Assembly: GCA_017450215.1 (NCBI GenBank)
Contig: JAFSVH010000129.1
Location: 1 to 58,361, forward strand
Length of the DNA stretch: 58,361 bases
Reading direction: 5' to 3'
Origin: Bacilli bacterium
Lineage (GTDB): Bacteria > Bacillota_I > Bacilli_A > ML615J-28 > CAG-698
Under the pieces are notes generated by a model. It saw only the letters and a list, made by a program, of their open reading frames with translations. It searched no databases and was not told where the DNA came from. This document shows positions 19,919-46,514 of the stretch, piece by piece (the first letter of the stretch is position 1; the number at the start of each line of letters is the position of its first letter). Both the position numbers and the translations under genes were made by a program.

Positions 19919-20644
19919 ATGATATTGTGCATTGATATAGGTAATACAAATGCAGTGTTAGGCTTATATAATGAAAAATGCGAAAAGAGTTTTAGGACTG
20001 ATCGTATTACTGAACAAAATTTCAGGAACTTTGTTTTTGGGACTTGCATCAAAAAAATAATAATTAGTTGTGTTAATAGTGAGATTGAGTCTGAAGTTAA
20101 AGAAATCATTAATTTAGTATTAAAGAAAGAACCAATCTTCATTAGGTGGGATTCTAATTTAGGACTAAAATTAAAGCTTAAAAAGCCACAGGAAATTGGT
20201 GCTGATTTATTAATTGGCGGTTTTGCTGCAACAATAAAATATGGTGTACCTAATATTGTTGTTGATATGGGTACTGCTACGACTGTGTTTGTAGTGAACA
20301 AGAATAAAGAATTCCTTGGTGGTGCTATCACAGCTGGTGCAATTCTTTCATATAAAGAATTACTTGCAAAAGCAAGCAAATTAAAAAATGCTACATTTTT
20401 AAAGCCAACTAAATACATTGGTCAAGATACAAATGAGGCTGTAGGTAGTGGCGTTATTTATGGTAATGCTTTAATGATTGAAGGCTTTGTAAATAAAATG
20501 AAACAAGAATTAGGCGAAGATGATGTGAAAGTTGTTATTACTGGTGGAATGGCTAATATCATTTATGAATTCTTAGATAATAGTTATATTCATGATGATA
20601 ATTTATTATTAGATGGTTTATTTGAAGCCAGTAAGATTTTGTAA
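19919..20644 (+). CDS. coaX: type III pantothenate kinase
   Basis: Phosphorylates pantothenate, the first step of coenzyme A synthesis. This ASKHA-fold enzyme of 241 residues shows the phosphate motif 'CIDIGNTN' (Asp6), 'GADLLIGG' (Asp96) and 'VVDMGTATT' (Asp116), all diagnostic of CoaX. GGAG lies just before the ATG. The next gene begins 13 bp after its stop and overlaps tkt, so coaX, the small EIIB-like gene and tkt form one operon. Confidence 0.95.
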   Translation: MILCIDIGNTNAVLGLYNEKCEKSFRTDRITEQNFRNFVFGTCIKKIIISCVNSEIESEVKEIINLVLKKEPIFIRWDSNLGLKLKLKKPQEIGADLLIGGFAATIKYGVPNIVVDMGTATTVFVVNKNKEFLGGAITAGAILSYKELLAKASKLKNATFLKPTKYIGQDTNEAVGSGVIYGNALMIEGFVNKMKQELGEDDVKVVITGGMANIIYEFLDNSYIHDDNLLLDGLFEASKIL

Positions 20645-20657
20645 AAAGGAGGAATAT

Positions 20658-21041
20658 ATGTTTTTAACAGAATGGACTGCTCCTCTTATTTTAGCTTTAT
20701 GTATTGTAGTGCCAATTGTTATTCTAGCAATTGTTGCATTTATAATTGCTCTTGTAAAAAGATCAAAGAAAATGAAGCTAAGTAAGGGAGTCAAGGTAAA
20801 AGAAGTAGAATTTGAAAATGATCTGTATAGTGAACTGTTTGGAATTGATAACATTTTGAGTGTTGAATGTGAGATGTCAAGGGTTACAGTTGAAGTTAAG
20901 GATATAGATAAAGTTAATACACAATTGTTACAAGAAAGAGGCGCAAGTGGTGTGTTACTTGTTGGAAATAAGGTTAAGTGTAATTTTAAAGAAAACGCTG
21001 AAAATGTAGCAAAATATTTGAAAGGACAAATAGAGAAATGA
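20658..21041 (+). CDS. membrane-anchored EIIB-like protein lacking the phosphorylated Cys
   Basis: A 127-residue protein with one N-terminal transmembrane helix (about 8-33), a short basic stretch and a C-terminal domain (about 50-125) that resembles the PTS glucose-type EIIB domain ('GIDNILSVE', the conserved Arg75, 'GASGVLLVGNKVKCNF'). In an ungapped alignment to known EIIB domains, the phospho-acceptor Cys position is Glu72, while the only nearby Cys is Cys71. It therefore probably cannot relay phosphate and may be a sensor or scaffold. ATG 20658 follows AAAGGAGG. Its TGA overlaps the tkt ATG, indicating translational coupling. Confidence 0.65.
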   Translation: MFLTEWTAPLILALCIVVPIVILAIVAFIIALVKRSKKMKLSKGVKVKEVEFENDLYSELFGIDNILSVECEMSRVTVEVKDIDKVNTQLLQERGASGVLLVGNKVKCNFKENAENVAKYLKGQIEK

Positions 21042-22996
21042 TTAAAGATTTTAATAACATCGAACAGTTATGTGTTGATAATATTAGAATGGTTTGTTTA
21101 GAGGCTATTGATCGTGCACAAAGTGGGCATCTAGGAGCTGCAATGAGTGGTGCTCCAATGATTCATACACTATTTACAAAATATATTAATGCTACTTGTA
21201 AAAATCCAAATTGGATAAATAGAGATAGATTTGTTTTATCAACAGGACATGCATCAAGCATGCTATATGCTGTTTTGTATTTAAGTAATTACATTAAAAA
21301 AGAAGATGTTATTAATTTTAGACAATTAGGTAGTATTACTTCAGGTCACCCTGAACGTGGAACTTGTCCTGGTGTTGATGCTTCAACTGGTCCATTAGGT
21401 CAAGGTGTAGCAACAGCTGTAGGTATGGCTATTTCAGAAAGATTTATGCATAATTTGTTTCCTGAATTTATTGATCATTATACATATTGTATGTGTGGTG
21501 ATGGTGATATCGAAGAAGGAGCATGTCAAGAAGCTTTATCACTTGCTGGACTTCAAAATTTAAATAAGTTAATTATTATTTATGATTCTAATGATATTCA
21601 ACTAGATGGAAAAGTTGATAAAGTTTTAAGAGAAGATAATAAGAAAAAATATGAAGCAATGGGCTTTAATTATTATTTAATTAAGGATGGCTTTAATTTA
21701 GAAGAAGTAAATAAAGTTTTAAAGAAAGCAAGAAAATCAGATAAGCCTGTATTTATAGAAACAAAGACAATTATTGGATATGGAACTAGTGGTGAAGCAA
21801 GTAATAAATCGCATGGTTCAATGCTTCCTAAAGGTGAAGTTGCTGAAATCAGAAAAGAATTCGGTGGTAACGAATTTGATATCGATAAAGAAGTATATGA
21901 ATATTATGAAAAGAATTCTGTTACTAGATCTAGAAAAGCTTACAATAAGTGGTTAAGAAAATATAAGAGTGCTAGTGAAGATAGAATCAAAGAATTTGAA
22001 TCATATTTTGACTCATCAAAAATTGATTATTCACTTCTTCCATCGTTTGATGAAGAAGATAAGAAAAATTATTCATTGAGAAAAGCATGTACTGCAATTC
22101 TTTATAATTTACAAGATCAATATAAAGGATTGATGGGAGGTTCTGCTGACCTTGGTTCTAGTGTTGGAACACTAGGACGTGATGGCGATATGAGTAAAGA
22201 AAATCCAACTGGTAGAAATATTTTATTTGGTGTACGAGAACATGCTATGGGTTGTATTGCTAATGGTATAACAGCTTATGGCCTTCGTGCTTTTGCATCT
22301 AGTTTCTTTGCGTTTTCTGATTATATGAAAGATACAATAAGAATTGCATCAATTGCTAATATTCCTACATTATTTATCTTTAGCCATGACTCAATTGCAG
22401 TTGGTGAAGATGGACCAACACATCAACCAATTGAACAATTGACAGCTGTCAGATCAATTCCTAATGTTATGACATTTAGACCAGCTGATGCGAATGAAGC
22501 AAAAGTTAGTTATGAAATAGCAATGAAGACTTTAGATAAACCTAGTGTAATCGTAATTTCTAGACAAAATTATGACTATGTTTCTCCTGTTGTTAGTGAT
22601 ATGTATAGAGGTGCTTATATTGCATCAATAGAAAAAGGAGACCTTGATGGTATTATTATAGCATCTGGTAGTGAAGTTCCTATTTCAATAAAAGCGCAAA
22701 AACTACTTGAGGAGCGAGGCATCTATGTAAGAGTAGTATCAATGATATGTAATCGATTATTTGATATACAAAACGAGGAATATAAAGAGAAAATATTACC
22801 TAACTTTATGAAAAAGAGAATGATCGTGGAAATGGGTGATGCTATTCATATGTATAAATATCTTGATAATATCAGTGGCAAATCAAAAGTATTGAATATG
22901 ACTACATTTGGTACATCAGGAAAATTAAAAGATGTTTTAAAACATTATGGATTTTATCCAGAGAACATTGTTGATGAATATTTAAAAATTAAATAA
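21038..22996 (+). CDS. tkt: transketolase
   Basis: Thiamine-diphosphate enzyme (652 residues) of the non-oxidative pentose phosphate pathway. The N-terminal TPP-binding domain has 'GHASSMLYA' and 'GDGDIEEGACQEA'. The pyrimidine-binding domain has the conserved 'DSIAVGEDGPTHQPIEQL', and the C-terminal domain follows. It starts in an ATGA overlap with the upstream EIIB-like gene. It is probably essential for pentose supply, since no oxidative branch genes are seen here. A palindromic hairpin follows. Confidence 0.96.
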   Translation: MIKDFNNIEQLCVDNIRMVCLEAIDRAQSGHLGAAMSGAPMIHTLFTKYINATCKNPNWINRDRFVLSTGHASSMLYAVLYLSNYIKKEDVINFRQLGSITSGHPERGTCPGVDASTGPLGQGVATAVGMAISERFMHNLFPEFIDHYTYCMCGDGDIEEGACQEALSLAGLQNLNKLIIIYDSNDIQLDGKVDKVLREDNKKKYEAMGFNYYLIKDGFNLEEVNKVLKKARKSDKPVFIETKTIIGYGTSGEASNKSHGSMLPKGEVAEIRKEFGGNEFDIDKEVYEYYEKNSVTRSRKAYNKWLRKYKSASEDRIKEFESYFDSSKIDYSLLPSFDEEDKKNYSLRKACTAILYNLQDQYKGLMGGSADLGSSVGTLGRDGDMSKENPTGRNILFGVREHAMGCIANGITAYGLRAFASSFFAFSDYMKDTIRIASIANIPTLFIFSHDSIAVGEDGPTHQPIEQLTAVRSIPNVMTFRPADANEAKVSYEIAMKTLDKPSVIVISRQNYDYVSPVVSDMYRGAYIASIEKGDLDGIIIASGSEVPISIKAQKLLEERGIYVRVVSMICNRLFDIQNEEYKEKILPNFMKKRMIVEMGDAIHMYKYLDNISGKSKVLNMTTFGTSGKLKDVLKHYGFYPENIVDEYLKIK

Positions 22997-42874: not shown

Positions 42875-42884
42875 GGTAGTGTTT

Positions 42885-44219
42885 ATGTTTCGTGATTATA
42901 TTAACAAGAATAAAGAAAACTTTTTAAAAGACTTGTATGATTTATTAAGAATCGATACAGTATTGGTTGAGCAACCTGAAGTTAAAGATGCTCCATTTGG
43001 ACCTAATCTTGTGAAAGCATTGAATTACTGTTTAGACTTAGGAAGAAAGTGTGGATTTAAAACAACTAATATTGATAATATAGTTGGTGAAATCGAAATG
43101 GGAAAGGGCGATGAAACTATTGCGATGCTATGCCATTTAGATGTAGTACCAACAGGAACTGGATGGACAACACCTCCATTTGAACCAAATATTAGAGATG
43201 GTAAATTATTTGCAAGAGGTTCATTAGATGATAAGGGTGCAGCTATCGCATCATTATATGCGATGAAAGCAATTAATGAATTAGGGATTAAATTAAATAA
43301 AAAAGTTATATTGATTCTGGGAACTGATGAAGAGACTGGAACTAGAGATATGAAGAGATATCTTGAGGTTAGACCAATGCCAACTATGGGATTTTCTCCT
43401 GATGCACAATTTCCTCTAATTTATGGTGAAAAAGGAATTATGTCTATAGATATAAAAATAAATGCAGAAGATGATGGGTTAGAGGTTGAATCTGGTGATA
43501 GATATAACGTAGTACCACAAGAAGCATGGGCAAAAGGTATAAAAGATACAAGTGATTATTTGAAATATCTTGAGAAGACAAATTCAAAAGGAAAATTAGA
43601 AGAAGATAAAATCTATGCTTATGGATTGAGAGCACATGCAATGGAACCAAAGCTAGGAATCAATGCCATTTTAAAATTATGCAATTATTTAAAGGATAAG
43701 ACAAATAATAAATTAGTACATTTTGTGAGTGATTGTTTGAATGATTCTAGATTTAAAGATATTGATTTAGATTTCACTGATTATGAAATGGGAGATTTAA
43801 CTTGTAATTTAGCTTTAATGAATTTAAAGAGTGGTGTTGGTAAGATAGGCCTTAATTTGAGATATCCAGTAAGATGGAAAAAGGAAGAATTCCTAAATGC
43901 ATTAACTAAAAAAGCAAGTGAATATGATTTAAGCGTTGAAGTCATACATGATAGTGTTCCATTATATGTGAAACCTAATAGCGATTTGATTAAGACATTA
44001 CAAAAAGCATATGTGAAAGTAACTAAAGATGATAGGACACCTCTTCTAACAATAGGTGGTGGAACATATGCAAGATATTTAAAGAATTGTGTTGCGTTTG
44101 GACCATTAAAACCAGGAAGAGAAGATGTATGTCACATTGTTGACGAATATATTTATTTAGAAGACTTACTTGATAGTTGTGAAATATATGCAGAGGCTTT
44201 GGCGGAACTTGGAAAATGA
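42885..44219 (+). CDS. pepV: M20 dipeptidase (PepV type)
   Basis: Zinc dipeptidase (444 residues) cleaving dipeptides, including those brought in by Opp. Metal ligands are visible: His84 and Asp86 in 'MLCHLDVVPTG', Asp115 in 'GSLDDKG', and Glu in 'GTDEETGTRD' followed by 'SPDAQFPLIYGEKG', which is PepV-like. A lid domain and the C-terminal His ('REDVCHIVDEYI') follow. ATG 42885 is preferred over GTG 42879 on SD spacing (GAAGG at 42872-42876). It overlaps trmB by ATGA. Confidence 0.93.
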   Translation: MFRDYINKNKENFLKDLYDLLRIDTVLVEQPEVKDAPFGPNLVKALNYCLDLGRKCGFKTTNIDNIVGEIEMGKGDETIAMLCHLDVVPTGTGWTTPPFEPNIRDGKLFARGSLDDKGAAIASLYAMKAINELGIKLNKKVILILGTDEETGTRDMKRYLEVRPMPTMGFSPDAQFPLIYGEKGIMSIDIKINAEDDGLEVESGDRYNVVPQEAWAKGIKDTSDYLKYLEKTNSKGKLEEDKIYAYGLRAHAMEPKLGINAILKLCNYLKDKTNNKLVHFVSDCLNDSRFKDIDLDFTDYEMGDLTCNLALMNLKSGVGKIGLNLRYPVRWKKEEFLNALTKKASEYDLSVEVIHDSVPLYVKPNSDLIKTLQKAYVKVTKDDRTPLLTIGGGTYARYLKNCVAFGPLKPGREDVCHIVDEYIYLEDLLDSCEIYAEALAELGK

Positions 44220-44854
44220 GAGTTAGAAAAGTAAAAAATGTAAATGAGAAATTAAAACAATATGATGATATATTGATAGATGACCCCACTATTTATAAAG
44301 GTAAATGGAATGAAGTATTTAAAAATGATAACCCAATTTATCTAGAGATAGGAATGGGGAAGGGAAAGTTCATCAATGAAACTGCAAAACTTAATCCTAA
44401 TATTAATTATATTGGATTAGAGAAGGTATCTAGTATTGTTTGTAAGTCTTTAGTTATCTTTAGTGAAGATAAAAAAGATAATTTGAAATATATATGTAAT
44501 GATGCTGCTTTTTTAAAAGATATGTTTCAAGATAATGAAGTTAAGAAGATATATTTGAATTTCAGTGATCCATGGCCAAAGACAAGACATGAGAAGAGAA
44601 GACTTACAAGTCCTAAGTTCTTGCAAAACATGTTAGATATTTTAGATGGTGATATAGAATTTAAGACTGATAATCGTTCTTTGTTTGAATATAGCTTAAT
44701 GGAATTTAATAGACTTGGTTTAGAAATATGTGAACTAAGCTTAAACTTACATGAGGATAAACCAGATTGTATTACTACTGAATATGAAGATAAGTTTGTT
44801 AGTCGTGGTAATGTTATTTATTATGTAAGGATAAAGCAAAAAGAACAAAATTAA
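44216..44854 (+). CDS. trmB: tRNA (guanine-N7-)-methyltransferase
   Basis: Methylates G46 of tRNA using SAM (212 residues). The SAM-binding motif is 'YLEIGMGKGKFI'. The family signature is 'NFSDPWPKTRHEKRRLTSPKFL', and the C-terminal motif 'TEYEDKFVSRGNVIYYVR' is intact. The start overlaps the pepV stop (ATGA), so translation is coupled. It is followed by the M42 peptidase after 35 bp. Confidence 0.95.
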   Translation: MRVRKVKNVNEKLKQYDDILIDDPTIYKGKWNEVFKNDNPIYLEIGMGKGKFINETAKLNPNINYIGLEKVSSIVCKSLVIFSEDKKDNLKYICNDAAFLKDMFQDNEVKKIYLNFSDPWPKTRHEKRRLTSPKFLQNMLDILDGDIEFKTDNRSLFEYSLMEFNRLGLEICELSLNLHEDKPDCITTEYEDKFVSRGNVIYYVRIKQKEQN

Positions 44855-44889
44855 AAAATATACTATTATTAATAAGAAAAGGAATTAAA

Positions 44890-45936
44890 ATGATAGATTT
44901 AGAATTATATAAGAAATTAACTAGTATGTATGGTATTAGTGGACATGAATGGGATGTTAAAGAGTTTGTGAAAAGTGAACTTGCTAAATGTAGTGATGAA
45001 ATATTAGAAGATAGAATGGGCTGTGTATTTGGTGTGTCAAAGGGTGATGGACCTAAAATTGTTTTTGCTGGTCATATGGATGAGGTTGGATTTATTGTTT
45101 ACCAAATTCAAGATGATGGTAAAATTAAACTTCTAAATATTGGTGGTGTTACAGCTGATACATATGTTAGTCAAAATATGGTAATTGTAATAAATCAAGA
45201 AAAAATAATTAAAGGTATAATTGGAGCTGTTCCTCCACATCTACTTAAAGGAGTTGAAAGAAAACCTCTTGAGGTAAGTGATTTACTTCTTGATATCGGT
45301 GCTAAATCAAAAGAAGAAGTACTTAGTTACGGTGTTAAGATTGGTATGCAGGTTGTATCAGAAAATGATTATTATGTAATGGAAAATGGTAAATACATTG
45401 TATCAAAAGCTTGGGATGATAGATTTGGTGTAGGAATGTCAATTGAGTTGATGAGAGAAGCAAGCAAAATGAAACATCCAAATACAGTTATTTGTGGTGG
45501 CACAGTTCAAGAAGAAGTTGGCTGTCGTGGTGCGCAAACAGCAGCAACACTACTAGAAGCAGATGCTTATTTTGCTATCGATGTTAGCCCTGCTTCTGAA
45601 GGTAGTGAGCCAGCATGTGGACTTGATAGAGGATTTTTAGTTAGATTTTATGATCCAAGTTGTATTATGAATCCAAAGCTTAGAGACTTTATTGAAAAGT
45701 TAGCAAGGGATAATGATATTAAATATCAAATATTTGCTTCATCTGGTGGAACAGATGCAAGGAGTTTCCAATATTCTAGAGCTGGGGCTCTTGCTACAAC
45801 TATTGGTTTACCTGGTAGATATATTCATACAACTGGTGCAGTTGTAAGTGTAGATGATATGGAAGCAGTCAAAAAAATTGCTTTATTGATTATTGAAAAC
45901 TTAGATTGGGAAAATTATAAGAAAATAGCATTTTAA
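44890..45936 (+). CDS. M42-family aminopeptidase
   Basis: Dinuclear metal (zinc or cobalt) aminopeptidase of 348 residues, forming large tetrahedral assemblies in the family. Ligands and catalytic residues are visible: His62 and Asp64 in 'FAGHMDEVGF', Asp in 'SKAWDDRFG', the Glu pair in 'TVQEEVGCRGA', Asp in 'FAIDVSPA' and the C-terminal His in 'YIHTTGAVV'. It lies after pepV and trmB and probably shares their transcript, supporting peptide use. It could be a glutamyl- or general aminopeptidase. Confidence 0.92.
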   Translation: MIDLELYKKLTSMYGISGHEWDVKEFVKSELAKCSDEILEDRMGCVFGVSKGDGPKIVFAGHMDEVGFIVYQIQDDGKIKLLNIGGVTADTYVSQNMVIVINQEKIIKGIIGAVPPHLLKGVERKPLEVSDLLLDIGAKSKEEVLSYGVKIGMQVVSENDYYVMENGKYIVSKAWDDRFGVGMSIELMREASKMKHPNTVICGGTVQEEVGCRGAQTAATLLEADAYFAIDVSPASEGSEPACGLDRGFLVRFYDPSCIMNPKLRDFIEKLARDNDIKYQIFASSGGTDARSFQYSRAGALATTIGLPGRYIHTTGAVVSVDDMEAVKKIALLIIENLDWENYKKIAF

Positions 45937-45968
45937 TAATTTTTAATAAATTTAAAAAGGAGAAGAAA

Positions 45969-46514
45969 ATGAAAGCATTAGTTATTCTAACAACTGGATT
46001 TGAAGATGTTGAAGGGCTTGGAACGATTGATGTTCTAAGAAGAAGTAAAATAAACGTTACTACTGCTTCTATTGATGATGTAAATATTACAACTCAATCA
46101 GGTCACAATATGAAAACAATGACGGTATTAAAAGAATTGGATTTAAGTGACTATGATTTCCTTGTTATTCCTGGTGGTGGAGCTGTATTTAACATTTTGG
46201 ATAAAGAACAAATAATTAATGATGTAATTGATTATTTCTATTTTAGTAATAAATTGATTTGTGCTATTTGCGCAGCACCATTATTAATAGGAAAGAGAGG
46301 ATATTTCAAGAATATGAAATATACTTGTTTCCCTGGATGTGAAAATAGAGTAACTGAAGGAATTTATACTGGAAAAGAAGTTGAAGTAAATGAGAGATTT
46401 ATACTTGGTAGATCTATGTACTATTCTTTAGATTTCGCTCTTGCTATTATAGAAAGAGTACAAGGAAAGAAGCAAAGAGAAATAGTAGAAGCTAGTATTA
46501 AGGGATTGAAATAA
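45969..46514 (+). CDS. DJ-1/PfpI-family protein
   Basis: A 181-residue single-domain protein of the DJ-1/PfpI superfamily. The conserved acidic residue is in 'TGFEDVEGLGTIDVLRR' (Glu15) and the nucleophile-elbow Cys101 in 'ICAICAAPLLIGK'. It fits the DJ-1/YajL branch linked to protein repair or oxidative stress, but the enzymatic activity of these proteins is debated. SD AAGGAG precedes the ATG. It is the last gene of the pepV-trmB-M42 unit, closed by a terminator. Confidence 0.88.
   Translation: MKALVILTTGFEDVEGLGTIDVLRRSKINVTTASIDDVNITTQSGHNMKTMTVLKELDLSDYDFLVIPGGGAVFNILDKEQIINDVIDYFYFSNKLICAICAAPLLIGKRGYFKNMKYTCFPGCENRVTEGIYTGKEVEVNERFILGRSMYYSLDFALAIIERVQGKKQREIVEASIKGLK

Follow-up and report, generated by a model that had tools for sequence, protein, structure and literature searches.

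Gene X, at positions 20658-21041 of the window (the whole stretch of 58,361 nucleotides analysed here), is a genuine gene whose product has the predicted fold of a PTS EIIB domain without the residues of a working one. Neither the phosphocysteine nor the second catalytic arginine remains; the protein carries a predicted membrane helix, is widely conserved, and is found in genomes without other PTS parts or a full-length transketolase gene (tkt). By analogy with the capture of a regulator by a dephosphorylated EIIB domain at the Escherichia coli membrane, we infer that X acts by docking; that it is a pseudo-EIIB docking module at the membrane, with FtsY as its candidate partner, has in our estimate a somewhat better than even chance of being right. 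The features concerned are as follows.

20658..21041, + strand: gene X, membrane-tethered pseudo-EIIB of 127 aa, stop codon included (ORF and domain matches)
20646..20652, + strand: AAGGAGG, ribosome-binding site of X (sequence reading)
20676..20759, + strand: predicted single membrane helix, residues 7-34 (AlphaFold2 helix and hydrophobic run)
20811..21038, + strand: EIIB domain of the glucose type, residues 52-127 (VIA alignments)
20871..20873, + strand: codon of Glu72, at the EIIB phosphocysteine column (3bp3 alignment and column table)
20880..20882, + strand: codon of Arg75, the first active-site arginine, kept (homologue column table)
19919..20644, + strand: coaX, type III pantothenate kinase, 5' neighbour of X (PF03309, E 6.4e-42)
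21038..22996, + strand: tkt, transketolase, 3' neighbour of X (PF00456, E 4.3e-96)
42879..46514, + strand: genes for an M20 peptidase, a trmB-like protein, an M42 peptidase and a DJ-1/PfpI protein (annotation)

X starts with the ATG at 20658, 13 bases past the end of coaX (20644), and its end (21041) shares the four bases ATGA with the start of tkt (21038), a gap of -4, in agreement with the position between coaX and tkt and the ATGA overlap described in the earlier, sequence-only reading of this DNA. The four genes at 42879..46514 are relatives of those that follow X-tkt in many loci of the window's family (f1), here 20 kb off. The protein consists of a hydrophobic N-terminal stretch, a Lys/Arg run and a C-terminal domain of ~75 residues. 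By reading of the sequence, there is no Lys or Arg before the hydrophobic stretch and there are five within residues 34-40; as the basic residues come only after the stretch, the EIIB domain should face the cytosol. The hydrophobic run and the model helix, which covers residues 7-44 and extends past the membrane span, support the earlier claim that X has a single membrane helix of its own.

The assignment of X to EIIB appears real though remote, judging from profile matches and the predicted structure. PF00367 matched X with E 1.6e-4 and 21.5 bits, under its gathering score of 27 bits, and the NCBIfam profile EIIB_glc (TIGR00826) with E 1.6e-8 and 34.8 bits, under its cut-off of 45.75 bits, while phmmer gave E 1.1e-4 against E. 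coli EIIB-Glc (PDB 3bp3); X was the sole match in the PF00367 search of the window genome. An AlphaFold2 model built from 49 homologues has a mean pLDDT of 87 and follows, after the helix, the order helix-strand-strand-helix-strand-strand-helix, as in EIIB. Against 3bp3 this model gave E 3.1e-6 in Foldseek and a VIA Z of 13.8 with an rmsd of 2.1 over 80 residues, and the VIA alignments to 3bp3, 3bp8 and 1o2f span X residues 48-127, 53-126 and 52-127, respectively. By title or description, the six best structural matches are all PTS entries with an EIIB domain (VIA Z 9.9-13.8). The glucose-type EIIB domain that had been proposed from the letters is thus supported by both profiles and by the predicted fold. 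An unrelated fold, which would have spoken against it, was considered and rejected, as PTS entries head the VIA ranking; the next-best matches, ArgR C-terminal domains, reach a VIA Z of at most 7.8, below the PTS entries, and we take their likeness to reflect a common simple arrangement. FliS (5xef; phmmer E 5.4e-4 against X) was absent among the best 50 matches of either fold search.

Queried with the X protein, 53 of the 60 nearest genomes gave matches (49 small frames and 4 long or spurious frames), and the profile matched 352 of 395 genomes of the class, a figure that is an upper bound because catalytic EIIBs match the profile too; a search at the level of the phylum yielded genomes of the same class only. 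X was matched in 26 of 28 genomes of f1 and in all 15 of the sister family f2, and it is present in 17/17 examined genomes of 0.7-0.9 Mb. The profile search did not detect it in G098, G114 and G134, three genomes of genus g66 that are 97-98% complete. The rows compared below are 107 X proteins from fetched loci, a subset of the 352 profile matches, with L049, one of the matches of the protein query, excluded as a spurious frame; L048 and L234 are one genome, so that 107 rows correspond to 106 genomes, 125 rows to 124, and the 94 loci of the neighbour count to 93. Four further loci bear X and lie outside that neighbour count because the ORF caller dropped X (L039, L185, L228 and L230). A scan of named records covered 48 loci, of which 12 hold X (L100-L110 and L140) and 36 do not, and another set of 28 loci, which includes 17 genomes reading TGA as Trp, gave a small X in 17 cases and a long frame with Cys in 8, the other three being L276 (a 314-aa frame with Ser), L272 (a partial match lacking the site) and L273 (no match).

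In the alignment to 3bp3, Glu72 of X falls on the EIIB Cys and Cys71 on the preceding Ala. The relative L223 (SSCLSRIR) carries its Cys at the very column of Glu72, which shows that the sequences are aligned in the right register; predicted fold, alignment and L223 being concordant, an artefact at this site was ruled out, and the earlier placement of Glu72 at the phosphocysteine position stands. Over the 107 rows this column holds E in 42, N in 16, K in 15, Q in 9, S in 7, D in 6, V in 4, I in 3, T in 2, and A, R and C in one each. The 17 TGA-as-Trp genomes have T (15), N (1) and K (1), and L242, an additional small homologue, has E. A residue other than Cys is therefore found in 106/107 rows, in 17/17 TGA-as-Trp genomes and in L242, and the catalytic Cys whose retention in homologues would have undermined the idea occurs in only 1 of 125 small homologue rows overall. 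In the named-record scan, by comparison, Cys stands in the best EIIB match of 36/36 loci without X (second matches in the same frames of L116, L123 and L126 have A, E and A), and it is likewise present in all eight EIIB-matching frames of at least 550 aa in the set of 28 loci. The second catalytic arginine is Thr77 in the window X and is R in 3/107 X as against 37/37 comparison EIIBs, which were selected by script for Cys; for Cys itself, the 36/36 best matches are the unfiltered control. At the first active-site arginine, Arg75, about 99% of the 107 X keep R or K, and Asn65 is invariant. With Cys and the second Arg gone and Asn65 and Arg75 kept, the chemistry has been lost and the scaffold retained. 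No conserved nucleophile was found in the active-site loop across the homologue rows. Of the PTS EIIB hallmarks, X shows the fold, in its predicted model; it stays under the curated cut-offs and lacks the phosphoacceptor Cys and the second Arg of the CxTRLR loop.

The rule that holds at this site, as far as the aligned sequences tell, is loss of Cys and not a conserved Glu. Conservation of Glu across homologues had been expected if it served a specialised role; the survey of 107 + 17 rows instead found near-constant absence of Cys and ruled out a conserved phosphate-mimicking Glu. The displacement of Cys by one position is seen in the window alignment, but a meaning for it is not supported, as Cys precedes the site only in the window X and L204 (2/107) and in L261 (1/17). 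What survives of that description is a non-catalytic, membrane-tethered EIIB-type domain, and it is conserved as a family.

Among the 60 nearest genomes, EI was found in 13, EIIC in 17 (14 over the cut-off) and EIIA_1 in 9 (8 over). Within the 41 X-bearing genomes of f1 and f2, the window genome counted in, EI was not detected in 39, the two positives being the window genome and G017 (a fragment of 41 positions), and EIIA_1 was above the cut-off in none. Since EI went almost wholly undetected in the two families and EIIA_1 was above the cut-off in none of these genomes, X is kept there without a chain able to phosphorylate it; single absences are soft because several genomes are incomplete, but the pattern over 39/41 is not. 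HPr was not detected in at least 12 and was present in 5 of the X-bearing f1 and f2 genomes listed, and 36 further misses stand outside that list. In the window genome, a PfkB kinase, an EIIA_2-IIB-EIIC protein, HPr and EI make up a single fructose-like operon. The genome's sole EIIC match is the EIIA_2-IIB-EIIC protein, which has a different IIB, and EIIA_1 was not found in this genome (94% complete, so that a gap is possible); neither a cognate EIIC nor a glucose-type EIIA for X was thus seen in it. Two HPr proteins are encoded in the same genome, and each lacks the site that the other keeps: the one whose gene is flanked by pgk and tpi (L236:3342-3587, contig C94) has Asp at His15 and keeps Ser46, and the other, in the fructose-like operon (L235:3414-3671, contig C102), keeps His15 and has Arg at Ser46.

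The neighbourhood of X varies between families. In f1, coordinate comparison places X directly 5' of tkt in 26/26 genomes having both, with gaps of -20 to +18 bases in the 19 fetched loci, and neither gene was seen in G007 and G009; the same order occurs in two genomes of family f4. In f2, full-length tkt was not found at E 1e-30; half-length transketolase matches only (E <=1e-30) were obtained in 14/15 genomes, on different contigs from X, and an M20 peptidase gene is found downstream of X in 11/13 loci, the other two reaching the contig edge. These f2 matches (G028-G041) cover ~270 aa of the N-part and resemble a split transketolase. The gene after X is ptsH in 24/94 loci, from families f8, f10, f12, f13, f21 and f22. 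In f7, f9 and f18 X often comes after spx and/or the gene for NAD kinase (NADK), and in f14 it stands beside a divergent rodA-like gene (5/5), with a pyruvate formate-lyase-like gene next in 4/5. As no neighbour is common to all loci, tkt is not a general partner of X. The X-tkt arrangement of the window therefore recurs in f1 and two f4 genomes, ptsH or other genes taking its place elsewhere, and the proposed link to pentose phosphate metabolism is not supported, f2 keeping X where full-length tkt was not found.

These data bear on several other explanations of X. The original proposal, in which Glu72 mimics a phosphate and makes X a locked-on EIIB sensor, coupled to transketolase and to the pentose phosphate pathway, could draw on Glu being the commonest residue at the site (42/107) and on the neighbouring, closely spaced or overlapping X and tkt of the 26 f1 and two f4 genomes. 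Homologues, however, also have Lys, Val, Ile, Asn, Thr or Arg there, and the phosphomimic reading fails because Lys, Arg, Val and Ile are unable to mimic phosphate; together with the f2 genomes and the distance of X from tkt in most families, this makes it highly improbable. The same 26/26 order, with overlaps of up to 20 bases or spacings of up to 18 in the 19 fetched loci, would also suit a membrane tether or regulator specific for transketolase, a general module having been put to this use secondarily and in this lineage only. In most families, however, X has no tkt beside it, and co-transcription alone could explain the adjacency, so we consider such a tether very unlikely.

The 24/94 loci from six families in which ptsH follows X suggest a different partner, X and HPr (or Ser46-phosphorylated HPr) forming a regulatory unit with X as its membrane EIIB-like component. 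HPr in these pairs keeps Ser46 in 24/24, and in three of them (L192, L194 and L197, family f22) His15 is replaced by Gln, so that neither protein of the pair has its catalytic residue; we take these f22 proteins, with Gln at His15 and Ser46 kept, to be Crh-like. Separate FtsY interfaces predicted for HPr and for MG_129, a mycoplasma protein discussed below, would also be compatible with such a unit (available text of PMC13047044). Against it, X occurs without detected HPr in 12 of the 17 f1 and f2 genomes listed, and the two genes may have stayed together from a former ptsG-ptsH operon; on balance such a unit seems unlikely. That X as a whole is a functionless, decaying relic of ptsG might be argued from the missing active-site residues and from ptsH beside it in several families, but its retention in 26/28 f1, 15/15 f2 and 17/17 genomes of 0.7-0.9 Mb, with Asn65 invariant in 107 rows and Arg/Lys75 at about 99%, leaves this idea extremely doubtful. 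A phosphocarrier role through another residue is scarcely conceivable: some members have Ser, Thr or Asp at the site and genes for EI and HPr are present in the window genome, but the loop is without a conserved nucleophile, and EI was found in 2/41 and EIIA_1 in 0/41 X-bearing f1 and f2 genomes.

In the docking model, which we prefer, X would be what is left of a glucose-type PTS permease, namely one membrane helix and the EIIB domain. With its phosphocysteine and second catalytic arginine gone, X would no longer pass phosphate, and its folded domain on the cytosolic side of the membrane would dock a cytosolic protein, which would be the reason for keeping it. The arrangement would resemble the docking of Mlc on dephosphorylated EIICB, but without a phosphorylation switch at that site. 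According to the available text of PMC3901232, dephosphorylated EIICB-Glc at the E. coli membrane binds and sequesters Mlc, an unphosphorylated EIIB at the membrane thus docking a cytosolic protein as proposed for X; a structure of the Mlc/EIIB complex exists (3bp8, by title). In the Mlc system, phosphorylation acts as the switch for docking, which is also linked to glucose uptake, whereas X has neither. SgrT was ruled out as a second precedent, as the same text describes it as recruited by dephospho-EIICB via the EIIC-linker, isolated EIIB not binding it; Mlc is for this reason the one docking precedent.

The leading candidate for the docked protein is FtsY, the SRP receptor, which is suggested by a single published prediction and a single crosslink obtained for what appears to be the Mycoplasma counterpart of X, MG_129. 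The genes MG126-MG129 are trpS, spx, NADK and the orphan EIIB, which is the order trpS, spx, NADK, X of family f9; trpS also adjoins the small, Cys-less X in 15/17 TGA-as-Trp genomes. MG_129 is not known to neighbour coaX or tkt, unlike the window X. A 2026 study, in its available text (PMC13047044), predicts binding of FtsY by MG_129, which it calls an 'orphan PTS EIIB', with a size-corrected ipTM of 0.496, places HPr and MG_129 at separate FtsY interfaces by AF3, and cites one FtsY-MPN_268 crosslink. MG_129 of M. genitalium and MPN_268 of M. pneumoniae would be stand-alone EIIBs like X, a likeness drawn from their description in that text and from gene order. By reading, FtsY proteins of the class have short N-termini in which a membrane helix is not evident; between 11 genomes with X and 11 without detected X (22 of 27 parsed) no difference in the N-termini was evident, and the X-negative G007 may reflect an assembly gap, its tkt missing too. 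No ftsY was seen among the annotated neighbour clusters of X, part of the clusters being annotated. It is tempting to speculate that a dead glucose-permease EIIB is the resident membrane receptor for FtsY, and for HPr where present, across Acholeplasma/Mycoplasma-type lineages, which we regard as possible though rather doubtful. If true, membrane-protein targeting would have its own anchor there, derived from a sugar transporter and possibly tied to carbon status through HPr. The FtsY lead makes the task of the pseudo-EIIB directly testable.

Compared with the EIIB of E. coli PtsG (EIICB-Glc; PF00367; 3bp3, 3bp8 and 1o2f), X has a common predicted fold (VIA Z 13.1-13.8), and the two are alike in the GGxxNI start, the first loop arginine, the GAxGV turn and membrane attachment. 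They differ in that X has no phosphocysteine, lacks the second Arg and has a single helix in place of EIIC, EIIA_1 not being found. A literature search returned no description of a class-wide pseudo-EIIB family; MG_129 is already termed an orphan EIIB. Annotation pipelines are likely to label X-type proteins as PTS EIIB and so to credit non-PTS organisms with an impossible phosphotransfer step. Retention of the pseudo-EIIB in small genomes, without detectable EI or EIIA and often without HPr, suggests a basic membrane-linked task, probably one outside the PTS.

X probably descended from a ptsG-type permease through loss of EIIC and EIIA, which is the simplest reading of tree and gene order. 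In 3/5 fetched loci of genus g32, family f12 (L238, L240 and L241; not L239 or L244), ptsH is preceded on its own strand by a Cys-bearing EIIBC at a distance of ~0.7 kb. In G052, also of g32, EIIA_1 closely precedes HPr and EI, and no EIIB match was found in its fetched stretch (L239). Elsewhere in f12, G094 has a small Cys-bearing EIIB (L223) followed by ptsH and EI, and G110 has an X with Glu (L242) followed by ptsH; in the two g76 genomes with X, ptsH adjoins it in one (L242, not L222). L223 resembles X in its small size, its hydrophobic N-terminal part ahead of an EIIB domain and the adjacent ptsH, but it keeps Cys and both arginines and falls among the catalytic EIIBs in the tree (99/91). 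Next to these come the X of f8 and f12 (99/85), and all X lie on one side of a branch of weak support (59/85), in a tree of 73 columns that leaves out one X and three EIIB rows as duplicates of others.

Three further observations concern proteins related to X or encoded near it. A Cys-containing protein of ~140 aa is often found near X on the opposite strand (29/94 loci, for example L040:5484-5906), and the one member scanned gave no Pfam match. The 314-aa EIIB-like frame of L276 (G174, family f16) has Ser at the Cys column (NNSVSELRYD) and is perhaps a second degenerate EIIB, judging by its sequence. In family f8 (L044, L178, L179 and L180), X is ~220 aa long with a much longer N-terminal part, which in L044 reads like several membrane helices ahead of the EIIB-like domain.
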